Virus record (IMG/VR): IMGVR_UViG_3300025282_000262
Location: 1-22,754 of that record
DNA: 22,754 nucleotides
Source of the DNA: a virus
Direction: 5' to 3' (one strand)
Part shown: positions 2,678-15,462 of the stretch, one piece after another
Layout of the letters: the number at the start of each line of letters is the position of its first letter
How positions within the stretch are numbered: position 1 is the first letter of the stretch
Notes under the pieces: model-generated
What the model was told of the DNA's origin: nothing
The model's input: only the letters and a program-made list of their open reading frames with translations
The model's database searches: none
Made by a program: the position numbers and the translations under genes

Positions 2678-2728
2678 TTTACTACTCCGTAGTATGATAG
2701 TTGTGGTTAGTCTTTGTCGATTTTCCAA

Positions 2729-2757
2729 ATAGTATTAGACATCTAATACTAAGTCAA
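2729..2757 (-). promoter_or_regulatory. Sigma70-like promoter for the packaging operon
   Basis: On the minus strand: -35 TTGACT (2757-2752), a 17-base spacer, -10 TACTAT (2734-2729). The start point is predicted near 2722, leaving about 45 bases of leader before the GTG start of terS. The spacer and -10 are covered by a 20-bp inverted repeat, so the promoter is probably repressed or activated by a dimeric protein. Confidence 0.6.
2731..2750. promoter_or_regulatory. Inverted-repeat operator AGTATTAGA-CA-TCTAATACT
   Basis: Nine-base perfect arms around a 2-base centre, placed between -35 and -10 of the terS promoter and overlapping the -10. This is a classic position for a repressor dimer. No second copy was found in the window. 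Confidence 0.65.
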
Positions 2758-2758
2758 T

Positions 2759-2774
2759 TTGAGTTTAATCTCAA
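2759..2774. repeat. Dispersed palindrome, copy 2 (15/16), between divergent promoters
   Basis: TTGAGTTTAATCTCAA. It lies one base beyond the -35 of the leftward promoter and overlaps a candidate rightward -35. It is one of two non-coding copies, which shows that the repeat is conserved as DNA, not as protein. Confidence 0.75.
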
Positions 2775-2786
2775 AACTAATATATA
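2759..2786 (+). promoter_or_regulatory. Candidate rightward promoter
   Basis: TTGAGT (2759-2764), 16 bases, then TATATA (2781-2786). The -35 lies inside palindrome copy 2. It would give a leader of about 300 bases before the first rightward gene. The -10 lies in a low-complexity TA tract, so this is weak evidence. Confidence 0.35.
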
Positions 2787-2808
2787 TATATATAACTTAT
2801 ATATATAT
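2784..2808. repeat. TA-rich inverted repeat
   Basis: Twelve-base arms, alternating TA ending in AA/TT, around a single C at 2796. Low melting stability suggests a DNA-unwinding element or cruciform. Confidence 0.5.
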
Positions 2809-2817
2809 TATTTAATA

Positions 2818-2848
2818 TAATAATTATCTTCTTTAAAGATAATTATTA
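2818..2848. repeat. AT-rich inverted repeat with 13-bp arms
   Basis: TAATAATTATCTT (2818-2830), 5-base loop CTTTA, AAGATAATTATTA (2836-2848), a perfect match. It has no T-run typical of a terminator and could be an origin hairpin or a regulator site. Confidence 0.6.
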
Positions 2849-2900
2849 AATATATGGAATTTTCCGAAAAGGTTCTCCCTTAAAGAAAGAACATTCAATC

Positions 2901-2947
2901 CCTTTCCCTTCTCCCCTCCCTTCCCCATCTTCCTCCCCTCCCATCCC
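2901..2947 (-). repeat. Homopurine/homopyrimidine tract, G-quadruplex-prone on the minus strand
   Basis: 47 bases that are pyrimidine on the plus strand except for two A. The minus strand has eight runs of three or more G with mostly short spacers, enough for a canonical quadruplex. Two near-identical units start at 2911 and 2933 (CTCCCCTCCCTTCCC and CTCCCCTCCCATCCC). It stands out in an AT-rich region. Confidence 0.7.
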
Positions 2948-2973
2948 GTGGGATTCTTGTTAAAGAATACCAC
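2948..2973. repeat. Hairpin GTGGGATTCTT / AAGAATACCAC
   Basis: Eleven-base arms with one mismatch and a 4-base loop GTTA. It lies in the likely leader of the first rightward genes; a role in RNA stability or at an origin is inference. Confidence 0.5.
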
Positions 2974-2982
2974 TCCCTTCCC

Positions 2983-3018
2983 GGAGTCAAGGGTCGTTTC
3001 ACTAGTACCCTTGACTCC
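2983..3018. repeat. Hairpin with perfect 12-bp arms GGAGTCAAGGGT
   Basis: Arms 2983-2994 and 3007-3018 around a 12-base loop. It is followed by TCTTATG on the plus strand, too weak for a terminator. It lies about 80 bases before the first rightward start codon, so a leader structure or protein-binding site is likely. Confidence 0.6.
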
Positions 3019-3096
3019 TCTTATGAAGGTCGTTGAGGATTGATAGATGTCGCCGAAATTTCCGGTGGCAAAAATCAGTGCCGAGGGAGGCAGAAA

Positions 3097-5254: not shown

Positions 5255-5572
5255 ATGACTAATTACTCGGGACTTGGAGCATACATCGGAGAAGCTACTG
5301 GCACAGCCAGACTACCAGATGACCCAGACTTTACAGAGGGAGACATACTGGTAGCAACCATGACTACACCAGACAACGTACCAGCTATGAGACTAGCATC
5401 TGGTATAGCTACAGACAGAGGATCTATTACATGCCACGCTGCCATAGTAGCAAGAGAGATGGGCAAACCATGTGTAGTAAACACCAAAAGAGCGACTGAA
5501 TTAGCAGGAAGACGAGTAACAATCTCAGTTAAAAGTATCAAAGAAGCAATGATACTAGAGCTAACTACATAG
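5255..5572 (+). CDS. Free-standing phosphohistidine swivel domain (PEP-utilizing enzyme mobile domain)
   Basis: 105 residues. Residues 51-75 read IATDRGSITCHAAIVAREMGKPCVV, matching the mobile domain of PEP synthase, pyruvate phosphate dikinase and rifampin phosphotransferase; His61 in TCHAA is the residue that carries the phosphate. The segment before it (GDILVATMTTPDNVPAM) is the usual lead-in strand and DMTP-like turn. In known enzymes this domain is fused between an ATP-grasp domain and an acceptor domain; here it is alone. The matching ATP-grasp domain is encoded at 9118-9927 in the same cluster. Strong SD AAAGGAG before the ATG. The phosphate acceptor is unknown. Confidence 0.9.
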   Translation: MTNYSGLGAYIGEATGTARLPDDPDFTEGDILVATMTTPDNVPAMRLASGIATDRGSITCHAAIVAREMGKPCVVNTKRATELAGRRVTISVKSIKEAMILELTT

Positions 5573-6874: not shown

Positions 6875-7819
6875 ATGACGGTGTATACAATACATGCTGG
6901 GTATAACGTCTGGGATCTATACAATTTTACTCAGAAACCATACCTTAATCATGGTAGTCAAACAACATACCCTTGGAAAATCACAGAGAAAACTTCATTT
7001 ACTAATGGGGCTGGAACAACAAAGGTAATAACTACAGGGAAATGGCAAGCTGACTACTACCAGAAGCTATCAGGAGCCAGTCCTACCCAGACATTACTCA
7101 GCCAGTATACACCTACATCAAAGGCAAGTAGTACGGCAGCCAAAGTAATAAAGACAGGAGACAACCAATGGGGACTAAAGGGTATGGAGTGGAGTTTAGC
7201 TAAAGAATCAGCAGACTACTATCTCTTAACACTAGGAACAATCATAGACCCTAAGAAGTATGAACCGTACCTAACTGCTAAGACAAAAATAATACTGGAT
7301 CAGTTCTGTAGATACACAGACATGGCAGTAGGTGGAGAGTTGAGACATGCTAAGAATACAACAAACTTAGCAAGGCCACTACAGATAGCACTAAAGGATG
7401 AGACTATAAGAGGCAGTCGTAACTCAGCATGGGAAGGATGGTACTGGTTCAGACAGAGGTACGGAACACTAGCACTGAAGTGGGCAGTTAGTTGTTTCAA
7501 TACACCAAAGAGATACAACGGTGGGTATGGTGGCTTACCTTGGGGCAACATAGCAAACACTCTATACATGTACGAGAGAGGACATATAACACCACATACA
7601 TTCATAGATACATGTTGGGGACTACAACATAACAACGGTACTTACTTCAACAAATGGTGGAACACAATGGGTATTAAGACATCGTTAGATCTAAACCAAT
7701 GGGGTTTCTACTGCAAACTATGGAACAGAACAAACAGAATGGTACATCAATTATTCAAAGAGGATTTTATAAAGGAGCATTGTCTATGCGAATATTGCAA
7801 CGAGGAATCAAAAGCCTAA
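6875..7819 (+). CDS. Conserved-looking unknown protein (314 aa)
   Basis: No family recognised. The N-terminal ~100 residues are Thr/Tyr/Gly-rich (SQTTYPWKITEKTSFTNGAGTT). From about residue 130 the sequence has many invariant-looking residues: DMAVGGELRHA, SRNSAWEGWYWFRQRYG, YNGGYGGLPWGNIANTL, FIDTCWGLQHNNGTYFNKWW. These fit a compact mainly helical domain with a Trp/His/Asn-lined pocket. A pair of Cys closes the protein (CLCEYC). It is the largest protein between the swivel and ATP-grasp genes, so it is a candidate for the missing substrate-binding part of that system (inference only). The next gene starts inside its last 34 bases. Confidence 0.7.
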   Translation: MTVYTIHAGYNVWDLYNFTQKPYLNHGSQTTYPWKITEKTSFTNGAGTTKVITTGKWQADYYQKLSGASPTQTLLSQYTPTSKASSTAAKVIKTGDNQWGLKGMEWSLAKESADYYLLTLGTIIDPKKYEPYLTAKTKIILDQFCRYTDMAVGGELRHAKNTTNLARPLQIALKDETIRGSRNSAWEGWYWFRQRYGTLALKWAVSCFNTPKRYNGGYGGLPWGNIANTLYMYERGHITPHTFIDTCWGLQHNNGTYFNKWWNTMGIKTSLDLNQWGFYCKLWNRTNRMVHQLFKEDFIKEHCLCEYCNEESKA

Positions 7820-8649
7820 AGGGTTTATTACAAGTGGGAAAGACAACAGTATATTTATCAGGTGACATAGTTAGACTACCAAGTGGACAGGAAGCAGAGG
7901 TCATAGAGCAACGAGGCAATAAGGTAGATGTATATAACGAAAAGCAAATGCAACTCGATACATTCTATACTAAAGAACTAGTACTACTGGAAGCAGTAGA
8001 TAGTCTTATAGGTGATACATCAGATGACTTCTATGGGTACGGTAAGCAAACCACTATGCCCGGATTCCAGTCAACTAAGCAACCCCATAAGAAATACTAC
8101 CCAAAGGTAGTACCTTGTGGCCATAACAGAGACAAGTTTCAATTACGCAATGGTGAAACTGTATACCTATCATCTAGGTCAGGCTCACTAAAGAAAGGTG
8201 ACAGACCAGAGGTAACAATGGGCTGTTACTTAGATGATGCTTGGATGAAAGCCAGAGTTATGTTTACCTCTGACTTCAGACCTGACAACAATTTCAGTCA
8301 GCTATTCCAAGAGAATGATTATCCATACATCGTAATTAACTGGAGTGACATGGGGGTTCTACCTTTAACAGACTTCAGTGAGATAGTAGCTTGGTGCATG
8401 ACACAGATAAAGCATGGGGAAAAACTAGACATAGCCTGTGTCGGTGGTCATGGCAGAACTGGCACACTACTAGCTGGCATACTGGTATTCCAAAACTACA
8501 CAGCAGATGAAGCAATAGAGAAGGTAAGAAAGGAGCACTGCAACAGGGCAATCGAAACAGTAGCACAAGAACAATTAATTAAACAATACTACAACGTACT
8601 AACAAAGGTGAGAAAGGAAAGAGCAGATGAGCCAACAGTTTCCAAGTAA
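7786..8649 (+). CDS. Cys-dependent (tyrosine/dual-specificity) phosphatase with N-terminal KOW-like part
   Basis: Start ATG at 7786 is chosen for AAAGGAG eight bases upstream, giving 287 residues. An upstream ATG in frame lies deep in the previous gene without SD. The C-terminal domain has the P-loop CVGGHGRTGT (Cys218-x5-Arg224) and, 30 residues before, WSDMGVLP (Asp188) as general-acid loop, both hallmarks of protein tyrosine/dual-specificity phosphatases. Residues about 20-55 (GKTTVYLSGDIVRLPSGQEAEVIEQRGNKVDVY) resemble a small KOW/SH3-like barrel. It could act on phosphoproteins, RNA ends or nucleotides. It lies in the same cluster as the two phosphotransfer genes. The end overlaps the next gene by 23 bp. 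Confidence 0.85.
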   Translation: MRILQRGIKSLKGLLQVGKTTVYLSGDIVRLPSGQEAEVIEQRGNKVDVYNEKQMQLDTFYTKELVLLEAVDSLIGDTSDDFYGYGKQTTMPGFQSTKQPHKKYYPKVVPCGHNRDKFQLRNGETVYLSSRSGSLKKGDRPEVTMGCYLDDAWMKARVMFTSDFRPDNNFSQLFQENDYPYIVINWSDMGVLPLTDFSEIVAWCMTQIKHGEKLDIACVGGHGRTGTLLAGILVFQNYTADEAIEKVRKEHCNRAIETVAQEQLIKQYYNVLTKVRKERADEPTVSK

Positions 8650-9118
8650 AGAACTAAACCTAGAAGTAATAATCAATTCAACCAGAGATGGTGACGGCAC
8701 ATTGTTAACAGCATCACCACAGTTTTTCTCTCATCCATCAAAGGATATAGTCAAACACCTACTGGAACTACAAGTACCTATACCTATGGTAAATTGCAAT
8801 CGCAAAGGCGATGGCTGTCCTACATATATAACAGAACTACAGAACCACAACCATCATGTACCAGTATTTGAGAGTGAGAAAGATCTAAACTCTTACATCG
8901 CTAGGATCATGGTACATACAGAGCAAGCATGCAGAAGTGTAGGTGTTGCACTAACACAACTACAAAAGCAACAGATGCAAGCAATAACATTTGCACTGTC
9001 TACAAAGCTAATGATATGTGGTGAATGTGGAGAGGTAAAAGAAGATGACGCTAGAGTACAGGCCGGAATGAAATGCGGAGCTTGTGCATATGGAAATACA
9101 GAAGGAGACATAGAGTAA
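8627..9118 (+). CDS. Zinc-ribbon protein (163 aa), function unknown
   Basis: The C-terminus holds C131-x2-C134 (CGECGEV) and C150-x2-C153 (CGAC), a clear zinc ribbon. An earlier pair, C57 and C64 (NCNRKGDGCP), and several His (NHNHH) may bind a second metal ion. The N-terminal part is a mixed alpha/beta domain of unknown family. Overlaps the phosphatase gene by 23 bp and the ATP-grasp gene by 1 bp (TAATG), so these three are translated together. A nucleic-acid or protein adaptor role is likely. Confidence 0.75.
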   Translation: MSQQFPSKELNLEVIINSTRDGDGTLLTASPQFFSHPSKDIVKHLLELQVPIPMVNCNRKGDGCPTYITELQNHNHHVPVFESEKDLNSYIARIMVHTEQACRSVGVALTQLQKQQMQAITFALSTKLMICGECGEVKEDDARVQAGMKCGACAYGNTEGDIE

Positions 9119-9927
9119 TGGAAATATCTTATCTATCTACTAAGGACAATAACAATAACTGGGGTGACGAAGAGGTAGGTGGCAAGGCTAGGCAGTTAAG
9201 GAACATAGCATCTAACATGGTCCCAGACTGGGTAACAATAGTAGCCACATGCCCTGACTCAGAGATAGAACGAACAGTACTAGAGGCATGGTACAGCATA
9301 GCAGGAAACGATTATGTTTATGTTAACGGTGTCCCAGTCACTAACGGTAGACGGTATGCAGTCAGGTCATCTGCTTCAATGGAAGACGGCAAAGACCAGA
9401 GCTATGCTGGAATATTTGAGTCTAAACTCAATGTTCCTATTACCGGATTAGAACAAGCAGTAAGAGAAGTGAGAGGCTCAGCTAATACAGCTAGGTCAGA
9501 GGCATACCTAAATAAAATGGGAGTGTCACATCACTACCATAATTTTGAAGATAAATACCGGAATGACGTAGCAGTAATCATCATGCCTATGGTAGATGCC
9601 AAGATCTCAGGTGTTCTCTTCTCTAAGGAGCCAGTAGGTGGCTCAGATCAGATGTTAGTAGAGTGGGAACAAGGTGTAGGTGGAGTAGTAGATGGCAATA
9701 ACGAATCACAACATGCCTTTCTACATCGCAAAGTGTTTCCATCAAAGTCAATCTTTGGAGACATGCATTGGAGTAATGATATAGCAATGCAATCCATATG
9801 GGCAGAAGCTAAAAGGTTAGAGGCTAACTATAAAAGACCAGTAGATATTGAGTGGGCCATAGATAAAAATTATAAGCCTTGGATACTACAGGTAAGGGAA
9901 ATTACAGCCATGAAGGAGGCAGTGTAA
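9118..9927 (+). CDS. Free-standing ATP-grasp domain of PEP synthase / pyruvate phosphate dikinase type
   Basis: 269 residues from the ATG at 9118 (TAATG overlap). It follows the PPDK_N family through its length: VGGKARQL (Lys23), YAVRSSASMEDG (Arg83), SYAGIFES, VAVIIMPMVDAKISGVLFSKEP and VDIEWAIDKNYKPWILQVREIT (Asp243, Glu245, Gln258). The ATP and metal ligands known from the family are therefore present. In PPDK, PEP synthase and rifampin phosphotransferase this domain moves a phosphate from ATP to the swivel-domain His. Here the protein stops right after the domain; the swivel domain is a separate gene at 5255-5572. No PEP/pyruvate barrel is seen. Palindrome copy 5 lies in the SYAGIFESKLN region. 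Confidence 0.9.
   Translation: MEISYLSTKDNNNNWGDEEVGGKARQLRNIASNMVPDWVTIVATCPDSEIERTVLEAWYSIAGNDYVYVNGVPVTNGRRYAVRSSASMEDGKDQSYAGIFESKLNVPITGLEQAVREVRGSANTARSEAYLNKMGVSHHYHNFEDKYRNDVAVIIMPMVDAKISGVLFSKEPVGGSDQMLVEWEQGVGGVVDGNNESQHAFLHRKVFPSKSIFGDMHWSNDIAMQSIWAEAKRLEANYKRPVDIEWAIDKNYKPWILQVREITAMKEAV
9416..9431. repeat. Dispersed palindrome, copy 5 (15/16)
   Basis: TTGAGTCTAAACTCAA, inside the ATP-grasp gene and in a different reading frame from most other coding copies (it encodes FESKLN, not LSLNS), so protein sequence does not explain it. Confidence 0.7.
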
Positions 9928-11047: not shown

Positions 11048-12310
11048 TTACTCCTTGTGAGCCAACCCATATGTTCTTTCATTGTCCTCTTGCCCTACTG
11101 CCACTACGCTACCTGACTTGATCATTATTTTTAACTGGTTAATAATCATTGACCTGTCTGTGTTTAACTTATCTGCCATAGTGGTAGCGGACATTGCCCC
11201 TATCTCTCCCATCAGTTCTTTTATTGTTTGGAATAGGTTAGCTTCCGCACTCATTAAGTTCTTTGTTTCTTCTGGTGTGGCAAACCTAACACTATCAAGC
11301 CCATGTTCAGTGAAGCTATAGTGTAAGCCCATAGGCTTTGGCTTTGGCATATCATTACACTTAGTAACCTCTAACAGTACAGCTATACTACCCTTGTCAT
11401 CTATCACTTCTGATGAGTGTCTGAGCATGACATCAGCCCCTGCCTCGAACTGACTGTTACCGTAGTACACTCTATCGTCATACTTAGGGGTATGTGCTAT
11501 GCCTAACCACGATATGTTTAGCTTGTTCATTGTATTGATGATAGCTGTAGCTACCTTATCCTCTTTCATGTCTCCCATTCCTGCTCTACTAACAGAGTCT
11601 AGTACTAGGAACTTAATGTCTTGGGTCTTGATATATTCTTCGAGTACATCTTTGTAATCAACCAGAGTTCCACCCTTGCCATTGAAGACGGTCAGGCTAT
11701 TTGAGTTTAAACCCAAAGCTTTAGCTACTGCCCCCACCCTTGGCGGTATGGTCCTCTCTGGTCTTTCTAAGTTAACGTACATAGCTTTGCCACCTGATGT
11801 TTCCCAGTAGTGGTTAGCTGAATAGTTAACTGTTAGTGCCATCATCATAGCGGTAAAAGATTTACCTCTGCCCGGCTTGCCGTACATGATAGTGCCACCA
11901 CCCTCTAGTACATGAGGCTTTAACGCATAGAGTACTGAGCTCGTGTCTGTTGTACCCTCTACCATTATGGGTGCTGATATCTCTAGATATGAACTCCATA
12001 CATTCTGGCAAAAGTAATTGAGTTGTTCCTTGAGTCTGCCCTTTGGTACGACAGACTCAGCGTCTGCTGGAGTAGCACCTAAGAACTTATACGCCTCATT
12101 GCATAGAGATGTACGCTCTCCATTTCTCTCTATGTTACATACTGTATAAGCCAGTGGTTTAGTATTGAACTGTATTTCTAAGTGAGCATGAACACCAGTG
12201 TCTGTCTTCCTGATATTCTCTGCTAAAAATGTAATAGTATCTAAGCTACATTCAATGTGATACTGAACACCATCATTGTCTGTCTTCTGTAATACGTTGT
12301 GGGTTACCAT
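11048..12310 (-). CDS. RecA/RepA-like ATPase (AAA_25 type) with C-terminal winged helix
   Basis: About 420 residues from the ATG at 12310, chosen because AGGGAG lies upstream (10 bases) and the longer frame overlaps the 81-aa gene. Walker A is GKPGRGKS (residues 144-151), Walker B FLVLDSVS (Asp238), and a sensor-like strand reads ISWLGIAHT. The C-terminal ~60 residues (MGEIGAMSATTMADKLNTDRSMIINQLKIMIKSG) look like a winged helix. Such proteins act in phage recombination or as replication helicases of RepA type; neighbours (annealase, two nucleases) favour recombination/replication. Palindrome copy 6 lies in its coding region (LGLNSNS). Its SD is a predicted target of the small RNA. Confidence 0.85.
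   Translation of the reverse strand: MVTHNVLQKTDNDGVQYHIECSLDTITFLAENIRKTDTGVHAHLEIQFNTKPLAYTVCNIERNGERTSLCNEAYKFLGATPADAESVVPKGRLKEQLNYFCQNVWSSYLEISAPIMVEGTTDTSSVLYALKPHVLEGGGTIMYGKPGRGKSFTAMMMALTVNYSANHYWETSGGKAMYVNLERPERTIPPRVGAVAKALGLNSNSLTVFNGKGGTLVDYKDVLEEYIKTQDIKFLVLDSVSRAGMGDMKEDKVATAIINTMNKLNISWLGIAHTPKYDDRVYYGNSQFEAGADVMLRHSSEVIDDKGSIAVLLEVTKCNDMPKPKPMGLHYSFTEHGLDSVRFATPEETKNLMSAEANLFQTIKELMGEIGAMSATTMADKLNTDRSMIINQLKIMIKSGSVVAVGQEDNERTYGLAHKE
11701..11716. repeat. Dispersed palindrome, copy 6 (15/16)
   Basis: TTGAGTTTAAACCCAA, one mismatch, inside the ATPase gene. Confidence 0.7.
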
Positions 12311-12518
12311 AAAACTCTGTCTCCCTAAATGTTTTTCTCTGTCGTGCTTGCTCATTAAACTTGGGCTTAACTCTTTCCCAAGTATCTTCACTACGCTTGT
12401 ATGGTTCTTCCTTGTCCTGTGGCGGTGGATACCAAATAGCCTCACAATAACGTGAGGCTATTGGCATATCCCATTTACAAGTCATTAACTTCTGACATAC
12501 AAAGTCACTGCAGTTCAA
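12273..12518 (-). CDS. Hypothetical Cys-containing protein (up to 81 aa)
   Basis: Frame opens at a TTG (12518) that overlaps the nuclease gene by 14 bp; a later ATG (MTCKWDMPIAS) is an alternative start. Neither has a clear SD, so coupling to the nuclease is assumed. Cys3, Cys8, Cys14 and Cys25 could form a metal site. The C-terminal half is highly charged (RSEDTWERVKPKFNEQARQRKTFRETEF). The 38-bp overlap with the ATPase start is unusual but within phage practice. Confidence 0.5.
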   Translation of the reverse strand: MNCSDFVCQKLMTCKWDMPIASRYCEAIWYPPPQDKEEPYKRSEDTWERVKPKFNEQARQRKTFRETEFYGNPQRITEDRQ

Positions 12519-13404
12519 GGTTATTAAGCTTTTTACTAGAGAATTTATATTGCTTCTGTGAGTTATACCAGTTCCATGCAGATATAAAGGATGTACCCTG
12601 TATCACTCCCTCTGGAACCCAGTTAACAGTACTGTTGTCTGGCTTGTCCTCTGATAAGTGGAACACTATACCGCCGATCTTTAACTTATCCATTACCCTA
12701 TCACCCCAAGGCATAGTATCTTGATAGCCTTCCCAAGGTGTTATGCTGTTCTTTAACATACTGATTATGCATGCTACATAGGCAGCAACTTGTACCCCGT
12801 CTTTGAAGTAGATATTACTACCAGTCTTTAAGTCACATACATATATCGTATCCTTCTGGTTAGACAGTAGTAGGTCTATGCTTCCACCGTACTGGTACTC
12901 TGCATTAAACACTGGTAGTTCTTGCCCTACTATTGTCAGTCCCTCTGACTTTATAAAATTACGAATCTTCTCTAGTGTTAGGAATATATTGTGAATGTTA
13001 TCAAGCCCTGCATCTAGTTCTCCTATCCATTTATCACAATTAAATGGATCTTGTAGATATAGTTCCATTGTTCTATGTATACGAGTGCCTTTCTTGCCAG
13101 ACTCTTTAAACTTTTCTTCTGAGTATCCTTTAGCTTTATCAAGTACATCATCCACTGTTAAGTTATTTGATATGTAATCAAGTGTCTGGTTAATAGACCA
13201 CCGCCTGATTCCCTCTGTCTTACTACCGTCTGCACTATTGATGATAGTGGTGACAGATGGTAGTGACTTGCCTTCGATCTCTCCAAGAGAGAGGAACTCA
13301 GGTACATCGCTTGTGACCTTATACCCATGCCCTCTGCCTCTTGCTACTTGATCTACCGACAAGCTAGATCCATTGTTGTTTTTATCCCAATGCCAATACT
13401 TCAT
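12505..13404 (-). CDS. PD-(D/E)XK nuclease, Cas4/RecB-like exonuclease
   Basis: 299 residues with the family motifs in order: GTRIH (His110), a Glu in QELPVF (Glu162), GGSIDLLL (Asp177), CDLKTG (Asp191-x-Lys193) and QVAAY (Gln205, Tyr209). These define the RecB/Cas4/AddB nuclease fold; the CxxC iron-sulphur ligands of Cas4 are not obvious. In phages such an exonuclease pairs with a RecT/Bet annealase to make 3' single strands for strand annealing, and the annealase is two genes upstream. The start overlaps the resolvase stop (TAATG), with AGGAG 11 bases upstream. Confidence 0.88.
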   Translation of the reverse strand: MKYWHWDKNNNGSSLSVDQVARGRGHGYKVTSDVPEFLSLGEIEGKSLPSVTTIINSADGSKTEGIRRWSINQTLDYISNNLTVDDVLDKAKGYSEEKFKESGKKGTRIHRTMELYLQDPFNCDKWIGELDAGLDNIHNIFLTLEKIRNFIKSEGLTIVGQELPVFNAEYQYGGSIDLLLSNQKDTIYVCDLKTGSNIYFKDGVQVAAYVACIISMLKNSITPWEGYQDTMPWGDRVMDKLKIGGIVFHLSEDKPDNSTVNWVPEGVIQGTSFISAWNWYNSQKQYKFSSKKLNNLELQ

Positions 13405-13751
13405 TAAATCTCTATCTCCTGTATTAAGAATGCTCGTGCTTTGCCTTTGGTGTATACCTTAATCACACCACCCTTGTCCTTCTTGGACTCTATTGAGGCC
13501 TTACTTAGCTGACTAGTGGCTTTGTCTAACCAAGCAGGAGTAGAGGACTGGGTGCTTTTGATTTCGTATACTGCATCGTCTGTTTCCACATCAGTGTGAG
13601 GCCGGGCACTGTCTATGTTCCTGACCCCACCTAATGCTCTAGCTACTCGGCGTTCATACTCTTTGCCACGCCGTTTGTTATTACGACCACGATGACTGTG
13701 GTTTATTGATTCGATAACTGCTTGATATCTATTCTTAGTCATCTGGTGCAT
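13404..13751 (-). CDS. Holliday-junction-resolvase-like nuclease (115 aa)
   Basis: RRGKEYERRVARALGG (Glu31/Glu33), DVETDDAVYEIKS (Asp54, Glu63-x-Lys65) and a later helical part with GVIKVYTKGKARAFLI match the Hjc/VRR-type PD-(D/E)XK resolvase layout. These cut four-way junctions; here it would process recombination or packaging intermediates. The start is ATG at 13751 or at 13742 (MTKNRYQ); neither has a strong SD. The gene overlaps the annealase end by up to 17 bp. Confidence 0.8.
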   Translation of the reverse strand: MHQMTKNRYQAVIESINHSHRGRNNKRRGKEYERRVARALGGVRNIDSARPHTDVETDDAVYEIKSTQSSTPAWLDKATSQLSKASIESKKDKGGVIKVYTKGKARAFLIQEIEI

Positions 13752-14835
13752 CCGCTACGCAGTAGTACTGTCCATTAACTACGACATCGCCCTGCGATCC
13801 ACACTGTATACAATTTGAGTTTACGCTCAAACCGTTATTGACTATGTTGATCCACCATGCCACATCTTGGTCCTTCCCTATTGATTCCACCTGTGTTGCG
13901 AGTTCACTACCATGGGCTTCACTAATTACATTGAGCCATGCGACTGTAAATTCTCCAGACGGCCTTGCCTCTGTGCAGTTACACCACCCCTTCTTGTAGC
14001 CCTCTTCTGGATGGGAGTAGTAGTCTCCAAAGTTACCGCTTCTTAGGTTCATAGACTTTCCGTGCAGCGGACAGATAATTGAGTCCTGTTTCTCTGGCAC
14101 TATTGGTGCTGGGATTTGTACTATTTGTGGTTGAGGTGTTGGTTCCTGTGCCATGACAGTCTCGCTGACTATGGTTGCACCCATGTCTTGTGCATGGTTG
14201 ACGATAGGGCTTGAGTGTTTAGGTGTACTGTCTATGATGGTAGTCTTCTCATCTTCTACCATTGTGCCTAAATCTATACCCTGCTCATCAAACTTCTGTT
14301 GCATTTCTGAGTAGTCATATAGTCCTGAGAATACATCAGGGTATGCCTCTCTGAGAGCATGTACCAATGCTACCTTTCTTATCATGGTGGCTGGCATCTT
14401 CTTCCATGTAGATTGATTACTCGAGTATTCTTCCATTGATACACTGGACTCAAATGGTCCGTCTGGTGTACTGACACTAGCCCATCCACCTACCAGTTGA
14501 TCGTCAGGTAATGCAAATGATCCCGACTCTTTCACGACAGACCTCTGTCCGTCTATTGTTCTGAGTACTATAACTCCACCTATCCAACTGGCACCATTGG
14601 CCCTTGCTTTCTTGGTGTAAAAGTCCTTACCTGTGACATATGAGGCAGGGCTATTGTTAGAGTATTTAATTAAATGCATATCATTCAGTAGTGGGTTAGC
14701 CCCTACTGTCTGACATGTCTTTACGAAGACCTGTAGTTCTAGGTCTGATGGCTGTACTCCACCCTTGCTCTGCAATAATGATCGTACATCGTCTATTGTG
14801 TAGTCTGTTGTTCTTACCAGTTCCGTAGTCGCCAT
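13735..14835 (-). CDS. RecT/Bet-family single-strand annealing protein with zinc-binding tail
   Basis: 366 residues. Residues about 15-180 match the RecT/Red-beta family: FVKTCQTVGANPLLNDMHLIKY, YVTGKDFYTKKA and WKKMPATMIRKVALVHALREAYPDVFSGLYD. The protein anneals complementary single strands made by an exonuclease. A Pro/Gln-rich linker (215-250) leads to an extra C-terminal part with C255, H258, C285, C287 and then C342, C345, C359, two probable zinc sites absent from the core family. Palindrome copy 7 lies there. The start overlaps the upstream gene by 22 bp; SD is weak. Confidence 0.88.
   Translation of the reverse strand: MATTELVRTTDYTIDDVRSLLQSKGGVQPSDLELQVFVKTCQTVGANPLLNDMHLIKYSNNSPASYVTGKDFYTKKARANGASWIGGVIVLRTIDGQRSVVKESGSFALPDDQLVGGWASVSTPDGPFESSVSMEEYSSNQSTWKKMPATMIRKVALVHALREAYPDVFSGLYDYSEMQQKFDEQGIDLGTMVEDEKTTIIDSTPKHSSPIVNHAQDMGATIVSETVMAQEPTPQPQIVQIPAPIVPEKQDSIICPLHGKSMNLRSGNFGDYYSHPEEGYKKGWCNCTEARPSGEFTVAWLNVISEAHGSELATQVESIGKDQDVAWWINIVNNGLSVNSNCIQCGSQGDVVVNGQYYCVADAPDD
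13815..13830. repeat. Dispersed palindrome, copy 7 (14/16)
   Basis: TTGAGTTTACGCTCAA. Outer arms are perfect and only two central bases differ. Inside the annealase zinc tail. Confidence 0.65.
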
Positions 14836-15062
14836 GGCGTTTTCTTTCCCTTTATGGTTATCTCTTTAATTTTTTGTACTTTGCCGTTAACTCTTCTGTT
14901 GTTATAAACTTCTGCTGTGTTAGTAAATGTCCTGCCTAGCTCATCTCCTGTATATCCACAGTTCTTACACTGTCCTTGACTTGTCTTACCATTGGGTCTT
15001 TCTATTATCCAATGATGATTCTTTGGTTCTGCTAATTGATCGCATGGTTTCTTTTTTGTCAT
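14814..15062 (-). CDS. Hypothetical small protein (82 aa) with CxxC
   Basis: KPCDQLAEPKNHHWIIERPNGKTSQGQCKNCGYTGDELGR holds Cys7, His16/His17, Cys32 and Cys35, a likely single zinc site. The C-terminal half is basic (RRVNGKVQKIKEITIKGKKTPWRLRNW). It overlaps recT by 22 bp. SD is weak (GTGGATC). Probably a DNA-binding accessory of the annealing system. Its leader is antisense to the small RNA. Confidence 0.7.
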   Translation of the reverse strand: MTKKKPCDQLAEPKNHHWIIERPNGKTSQGQCKNCGYTGDELGRTFTNTAEVYNNRRVNGKVQKIKEITIKGKKTPWRLRNW

Positions 15063-15084: not shown

Positions 15085-15113
15085 TTGACCACAATATCTG
15101 GGTATGCTATAAA
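15085..15113 (+). promoter_or_regulatory. Strong sigma70-like promoter with extended -10 for the small RNA
   Basis: TTGACC (15085-15090), exactly 17 bases, TATAAA (15108-15113), with TGC directly before the -10 (extended -10). Five of six matches in each box. Predicted start near 15120. It points rightward, against the leftward operon. Confidence 0.75.
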
Positions 15114-15119
15114 TAAATA

Positions 15120-15203
15120 GCCGTTGCTATTAGGTTGTCTCCCTGATAGATGGTGCTTTGTTCGAGGGGCTAGTAATTGTGGCGATTGCTAGTCCCTTTT
15201 ATT
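15120..15203 (+). ncRNA. Predicted ~80-nt phage small RNA, antisense within the recombination operon
   Basis: A strong promoter lies just upstream and an intrinsic terminator ends it; no ORF with an SD is inside. Stem-loop 1: CTATTAGG (15127-15134), loop TTGTCTC, CCTGATAG (15142-15149). Stem-loop 2 is the terminator. Three pairs across the two stems are G-U wobbles that exist only in the plus-strand RNA. The loop plus flank GTCTCCCTGA is complementary to the SD of the 68-aa gene (3476-3485), and TTGTCTCCCTGA pairs over 12 positions with the SD region of the ATPase gene (two G-U). It is also fully antisense to the leftward leader between the HTH gene and the 82-aa gene, like lambda OOP in layout. 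Confidence 0.7.
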
Positions 15204-15204
15204 T
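15166..15204 (+). terminator. Rho-independent terminator of the small RNA
   Basis: GGGGCTAGTAAT (15166-15177), 7-base loop, ATTGCTAGTCCC (15185-15196), then TTTTATTTT. Twelve pairs including two G-U that pair only in the plus-strand RNA. It overlaps the stop codon of the convergent HTH gene. Confidence 0.8.
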
Positions 15205-15372
15205 TATTACTGACATAATTTTCTCCTCTGTTGATTCCTTTGGCTCACAGTGCCCATTCATAATTCTACTTAGGTGTTCTTCAGACATGTTTGCTTTCCT
15301 TGCCAAGTATGCCTGACTGCGTTCTTCTTTCTCTAACCATTCAACTATTGTCCATTTCAATTCTGTTCTCAT
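15199..15372 (-). CDS. Cro/CI-type HTH regulator (57 aa)
   Basis: Start ATG at 15372 is preferred, with CGGAG six bases upstream and a promoter just before it; an in-frame TTG at 15432 is the -35 box itself. Residues about 16-46 (ERSQAYLARKANMSEEHLSRIMNGHCEPKE) are an XRE-type helix-turn-helix. At 57 residues it is close to lambda Cro in size. As first gene of the leftward operon it probably represses its own promoter and perhaps the divergent hub at 2.7 kb. It is the first candidate to test for binding the 16-bp palindrome. Confidence 0.8.
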   Translation of the reverse strand: MRTELKWTIVEWLEKEERSQAYLARKANMSEEHLSRIMNGHCEPKESTEEKIMSVIK

Positions 15373-15403: not shown

Positions 15404-15432
15404 AGTTTATCATCGGGGAAAATAAATGTCAA
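15404..15432 (-). promoter_or_regulatory. Leftward promoter of the HTH/recombination operon
   Basis: Minus strand: TTGACA (15432-15427, 6/6), 17-base spacer, TAAACT (15409-15404, 4/6). Start predicted near 15397, 25 bases before the ATG. A hairpin abuts the -35 and palindrome copy 8 lies about 50 bp upstream, so regulation from both is plausible. Confidence 0.75.
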
Positions 15433-15462
15433 GAGTTCCTTGATATTCTCAAGGAACCTCTT
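15427..15462 (-). terminator. Hairpin between late operon end and HTH promoter, possible terminator
   Basis: Perfect 8-bp core TTCCTTGA / TCAAGGAA (15436-15443, 15449-15456), extended to AAGAG/CTCTT with one bulge. On the minus strand it is followed by GACATTTATTTT, moderately T-rich. It would stop late transcription ahead of the HTH gene, and it overlaps the -35, so it may also be an operator. Confidence 0.5.

Follow-up and report, generated by a model that had tools for sequence, protein, structure and literature searches.

A predicted antisense small RNA facing the recombination operon in a group of uncultured phages, OOP-like in position

Most of what is known of antisense RNAs in phages comes from a small number of lysogenic model phages. 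The c4 RNA of P1 and P7 is processed from the transcript of the ant operon, is not known to be made from an opposing promoter, and has ant as its target, while the sar RNA of P22 has an intercistronic promoter. In Firmicutes, small RNAs with C-rich loops such as RsaE/RoxS pair with Shine-Dalgarno sequences through a single-stranded UCCC/CUCC segment. The OOP RNA of lambda overlaps 52 nt of the cII coding sequence, and upon its pairing with the cII-O mRNA, RNase III cuts 12 nt downstream of cII (PMC5869508). The c4 RNA acts via loops complementary to a ribosome-binding site, and sar is a small antisense RNA of an early regulatory region that limits a downstream gene (PMC12197685). The RNA described here was found by comparative genomics in uncultured phages. 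We consider it likely, judging from sequence, that this phage group carries a genuine small-RNA gene with a sigma-70-type promoter, an antisense transcript of 85-90 nt, an OOP-like position and a c4-like loop.

The stretch of DNA analysed, referred to here as the window, is the 22,754-nt IMG/VR virus record IMGVR_UViG_3300025282_000262. As far as sequence can establish it, positions 15085-15209 of the plus strand are a small-RNA gene, recognised by promoter, strand, terminator and two-hairpin fold. The promoter (15085-15113, +) combines a −35 box, TTGACC, at 15085-15090 with a 17-nt spacer and an extended −10, TGC-TATAAA, whose hexamer lies at 15108-15113. The predicted RNA runs on the plus strand from 15120, a start set 7 nt past the −10, to about 15204-15209 within the T-run, giving a length of roughly 85-90 nt. 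It would open with a 5′ stem-loop (15120-15154, +) bearing a 7-nt loop, UUGUCUC, at 15135-15141; a UCUCC segment resembling an anti-Shine-Dalgarno sequence (15138-15142, +) sits inside or at the edge of this loop, hereafter loop 1. A terminator hairpin follows (15164-15198, +), with a stem of 16 bp that includes four G-U pairs, and then the T-rich tail TTTTATTTTATTA. No ORF led by a Shine-Dalgarno sequence was found inside the predicted RNA, the only frames there being a 7-codon ATG frame without such a sequence and a mechanical TTG frame at 15158-15316.

Only four sites in the 22.7 kb of the window combine TGn with at least 10/12 promoter matches; the small-RNA promoter is one of them, and the promoter-like site of the neighbouring helix-turn-helix (HTH) gene is another. 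The number of consensus promoter matches in the region does not exceed that in shuffled sequence. A scan of the region for terminator patterns gave 8 matches against 2.5 expected, and terminator-like patterns alone were therefore not counted as evidence. The fold of the predicted RNA reaches −35.1 kcal/mol on the plus strand (z −5.2; 0/200 shuffles as stable), compared with −15.3 kcal/mol (z −1.65) on the opposite strand, and it has the second-lowest z of the 1512 overlapping windows of 90 nt taken from both strands of the record. Seven G-U pairs occur in the best plus-strand fold, three in the 5′ hairpin and four in the terminator, and none in the fold of the opposite strand. A preliminary description of this locus had proposed an extended −10 promoter, two stem-loops and the lack of a Shine-Dalgarno-led ORF between promoter and terminator, and all of these hold on closer analysis, the last by a frame check. 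Its 12-bp terminator stem is in fact the 16-bp stem given above; it was right that G-U wobbles are confined to the plus-strand RNA, and its count of three has to be raised to seven.

All genes from the HTH gene through a helicase-like ATPase (15372 to 11048) point leftward, opposite to the predicted RNA. The HTH regulator (15199-15372, −; 57 aa) matches Pfam HTH_3 (E 6e-5) and phage repressor PHROGs. The first operon gene behind the small RNA encodes p82, a small Cys-containing protein (14814-15062, −), and is followed by genes for a RecT-like single-strand annealing protein (13735-14835, −; phrog_2760, E 1.9e-32), a small nuclease (13404-13751, −), a PD-(D/E)XK exonuclease (12505-13404, −) and the AAA_25 helicase-like ATPase (11048-12310, −; Pfam AAA_25, E 4e-15), whose Shine-Dalgarno region, AGGGAGACAG, lies at 12317-12326. 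The small-RNA unit occupies the intergenic region between HTH and p82. The terminator reaches the HTH gene at its stop codon, and the overlap with that gene is confined to this codon (about 6-11 nt); at the other end, about 58 nt separate the start of the RNA from the start codon of p82. Facing the small-RNA promoter is the HTH promoter-like site (15404-15432, −), TTGACA-N17-TAAACT with TGn, which is presumably also the promoter of the whole operon. The small nuclease family had matches among the genome contigs only in L084 and L085 (PBIO01000029 and PBIO01000007), which belong to a Halobacteriovorax MAG; this may point, though only weakly, to a host of the wider phage group.

For comparison, diverged IMG/VR relatives were found by protein searches, and four distinct ones hold an intact operon start: L007, L039 (identical to L040), L041 and L086, the last a fuller stretch of the L046 contig. 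Together with the window these make five distinct examples. A near-identical contig (99.75%) has no differences within the small RNA and is thus uninformative. All four relatives share the layout before the RecT operon, with the unit on the same strand relative to the operon. The small-RNA promoter reads TTGACC-N17-TATATA in L039, TTGACC-N17-TGTATA in L041 and TTGACA-N17-TAATAT in L086; in L007 there is an extended −10, TGT-TATAAA, with no recognisable −35. The two-hairpin architecture is common to all five phages, the 5′ loop being larger in L041, and in each of them a terminator hairpin follows the UCUCC, though in L007 and L041 its T-run is weak. HMM relatives of p82 occur in L039, L041 and L086. 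The upstream gene encodes an HTH protein in the window, L007 and L086, and an unrelated Xis-like protein in L039 and L041. Since the small RNA stays with p82 despite this swap, the unit goes with the p82/RecT operon, not with the HTH gene. At the more distant p82/RecT loci of L011, L024, L026, L027, L050, L075 and L076 no such small RNA was seen, and the RecT-only relatives L003-L005 were left out as not syntenic. A pattern scan of both strands of the 1.1 Mb of fetched DNA (UCUCC hairpin plus terminator plus TTGAC promoter) returned homologous copies of this locus only.

Where the HTH gene is present, its own control region also recurs: TTGACA plus a −10-like hexamer lies upstream of HTH in L007 and L086 as well. 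Immediately upstream of the TTGACA box is an inverted repeat, GTTCCTTGA..TCAAGGAAC at 15435-15457 in the window and GTTTCTTGATA..TATCAAGAAAC at about 5905-5935 in L007, and these repeats are possible operators. Other features of these genomes may be recorded here. A 16-bp palindrome, TTGAGTTTAAACTCAA, occurs at window positions 1390, 2759, 5021, 6677, 9416, 11701, 13815 and 15483, both within genes and close to the promoters of the terminase and HTH genes. With up to 3 mismatches allowed, it gives 17 strand-hits in the window against 1.1 expected, a number that 0/100 shuffles reached. Copies number 8 in the window (G007), 8 in L007, 13 in L039 and 12 in L041, with none in most other related contigs and a variant, TTGAGCTTAAGCTCAA, in L086; they are candidates for repressor operators, stoperators or partition sites. 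Beside the leftward gene at 2150-2728, the intergenic stretch 2728-3040 (fold z −7.4) has several inverted repeats in a row, together with AT-rich palindromes and a long polypyrimidine tract, and is possibly a packaging site, an origin or a second control region. The window also encodes a PEP-utiliser swivelling domain (5255-5572, +; Pfam E 5e-24) and a PPDK_N ATP-binding domain (9073-9927, +; Pfam E 2e-30) in separate genes, with a CX5R phosphatase-like ORF at 7699-8649 between them; L039 has a PPDK_N-like gene and L041 a swivelling-domain-like gene.

The five examples allow selection on the RNA itself to be examined. Because whole-RNA alignment with MAFFT and RNAalifold misaligned the stems, these were extracted and aligned directly. 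The terminator stems share little sequence, and 8/10 aligned pairs have changed on both sides across the five phages, a degree of covariation that 0/500 shuffles match and that collapses when the pairings are slid. All cells of the alignment (ten pairs by five phages) are paired, 100%, a figure that is high by construction, the alignment having been built from predicted stems. The weight of the stem evidence lies instead in the finding that five different stems stand at one and the same position, each followed by its T-run on the same side. Fold z on the predicted strand is −5.5, −4.7, −3.8, −4.2 and −4.1 over the five phages, below that of the other strand in each, and the predicted-strand folds hold 21 G-U pairs against 6 in the opposite-strand folds. 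The preliminary description had looked to related phages for compensatory changes and had argued for selection on a plus-strand RNA. The changes are present, with the hairpin kept in four independent relatives, and the argument is borne out by them together with the strand bias and a promoter that is whole or, in L007, partial. That promoter-like and hairpin sequences should have come together by chance is scarcely credible: consensus promoter matches are indeed no commoner in the region than in shuffles, but there are five syntenic examples, independent of one another, whose changes are two-sided and whose signals agree on the strand, and these effectively refute this account. An RNA whose hairpin shape has been kept while most of its letters changed is, by comparison of these sequences, very probably a genuine regulatory RNA, belonging to a new family.

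The strand signals also bear on whether the selected element is instead on the other strand, in the leader of the recombination mRNA, where GGAGA would serve a short leader ORF, held in a hairpin, as its ribosome-binding site. This would account for GGAGAAAC-TATG in L041 and GGAGACAAC-TATG in L086, which open ORFs of 26 and 23 codons, and the sense-strand folds of L007, L039 and L086 are stable too. However, no start codon is found there in the window, L007 or L039, the window has TAA TAG next, and its sense-strand fold is weak (z −1.65). G-U pairs and T-runs favour the small-RNA strand, and this reading offers no explanation for an antisense-strand TTGAC(A/C)-N17 promoter; we regard a leader ORF as very unlikely. 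A sense-strand mini-ORF, LYNTTIYxGQQI, in L039 and L041 was likewise not favoured because of the lack of a start codon in the window, L007 and L039.

UCUCC is the best-kept sequence in the small RNA, being present in 5/5 phages and beginning 17-23 nt past the predicted start, and simple cis-antisense action does not need it. A cis-antisense RNA may drift freely, because its target changes along with it. That UCUCC has been retained while the stems drifted therefore suggests a further constraint, the simplest being that it pairs with GGAG ribosome-binding sites. This retention also bears on a device that works without any base-pairing RNA. In such a device the convergent promoter would hinder leftward transcription or, as transcription from lambda pO may do, activate replication, and the terminator would serve only to keep antisense transcription out of the HTH gene. 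In its favour, most loci show the promoter and the terminator more clearly than anything else, and a review gives lambda pO a part in replication control that is separate from the RNA (PMC12197685). Such a device has no need for the 5′ hairpin and UCUCC, yet both are kept while their surroundings change, and we think it unlikely. Conservation of UCUCC could also be read as the anti-Shine-Dalgarno seed of a trans-acting RNA aimed at host mRNAs, its antisense position being incidental. That the RNA faces one and the same operon from a constant position in 5/5 phages suggests cis or in-phage targets instead, which makes host targets improbable, more so than a device without a pairing RNA.

Among in-phage partners, the best for loop 1 in the window is the helicase Shine-Dalgarno sequence given above (−17.4 kcal/mol; rank 1/32 start sites). 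The helicase start site is also the best loop partner in L007 and L041, and in L039 the best is the RecT start site (−19.7, first of 39). In L086 neither the helicase nor the RecT site stands out, the helicase scoring −11.3 and p82 −13.4. When loops and sites were reassigned among the phages, own-phage pairing with RecT came out best of 120 assignments, though strong only in L039 and L041, and own-phage pairing with the helicase Shine-Dalgarno sequence came 14th of 120. These pairing calculations are suggestive at best of a trans target of the loop among the operon start sites.

Taking the antisense small RNA as the preferred reading, a mechanism can be proposed. The sigma-70-type promoter would drive an RNA of 85-90 nt against the early operon HTH - p82 - RecT - nuclease - exonuclease - helicase, and the transcript would stop at the intrinsic terminator, which lies where the upstream gene has its stop codon. 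We infer that the RNA is made in infected cells, where its pairing partner would be the complementary leader in operon mRNA that has read through from the HTH promoter. The resulting double-stranded RNA may be open to RNase III cutting between HTH and p82, as with OOP, and the UCUCC loop may additionally mask GGAG-type ribosome-binding sites, most likely in the same operon, as with c4. The effect would be to damp the recombination and replication genes or to time them relative to the HTH regulator. A dual-mode version, in which the RNA acts in cis through full complementarity to the recombination-operon leader and in trans through an anti-Shine-Dalgarno loop on the RecT or helicase ribosome-binding sites, is a tentative suggestion that we would not put at even odds. 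If true, operon-wide translation would be set by one RNA in a group of uncultured phages. More broadly, operon-facing antisense RNA may be a recurring control of early phage recombination and replication genes, and the conserved loop predicts how the RNA pairs, in a way that can be tested directly.

The phages themselves are far from those in culture: no DNA similarity to cultured phages was found, the terminase shares only about 25% identity with theirs, and the helicase has no match among them. An Rfam scan of the window, L039, L041, L007 and L086 gave no match at gathering score, and a lax search gave only a below-threshold miRNA match (E 0.58). The RNA family is thus new, having no Rfam match, and its kind, the phage-encoded antisense small RNA, is known.

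Of the described systems, lambda OOP shares several features with the present RNA: a short RNA with its own promoter opposite an early operon, an intrinsic terminator by the upstream regulator gene, a start in front of replication or recombination genes, and full complementarity to the operon mRNA. The pairing of an own promoter with an intrinsic terminator against the early operon is found in all five phages, without the −35 in L007. The likeness to OOP drawn in the preliminary description therefore stands for the layout and fails for the overlap with the coding part of the upstream regulator, the present RNA being almost wholly confined to the intergenic leader and touching only the HTH stop codon, in contrast to the 52 nt of cII covered by OOP. 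The HTH gene, moreover, is identified here as an HTH_3 regulator, not as a cII homologue, and is replaced in two relatives. To our knowledge, a conserved UCUCC loop is not a described feature of OOP. In this respect the RNA resembles c4 of P1 and P7, also a structured phage RNA, whose loops hold the complement of a ribosome-binding region (PMC12197685), as loop 1 may do here; no sequence or Rfam relation was found between the two. P22 sar differs in blocking translation initiation of the downstream ant, whereas the present RNA leaves the p82 ribosome-binding site uncovered. RsaE/RoxS are chromosomal stress regulators and not phage antisense RNAs, and what they have in common with the present RNA is the segment that pairs, or here would pair, with Shine-Dalgarno sequences.
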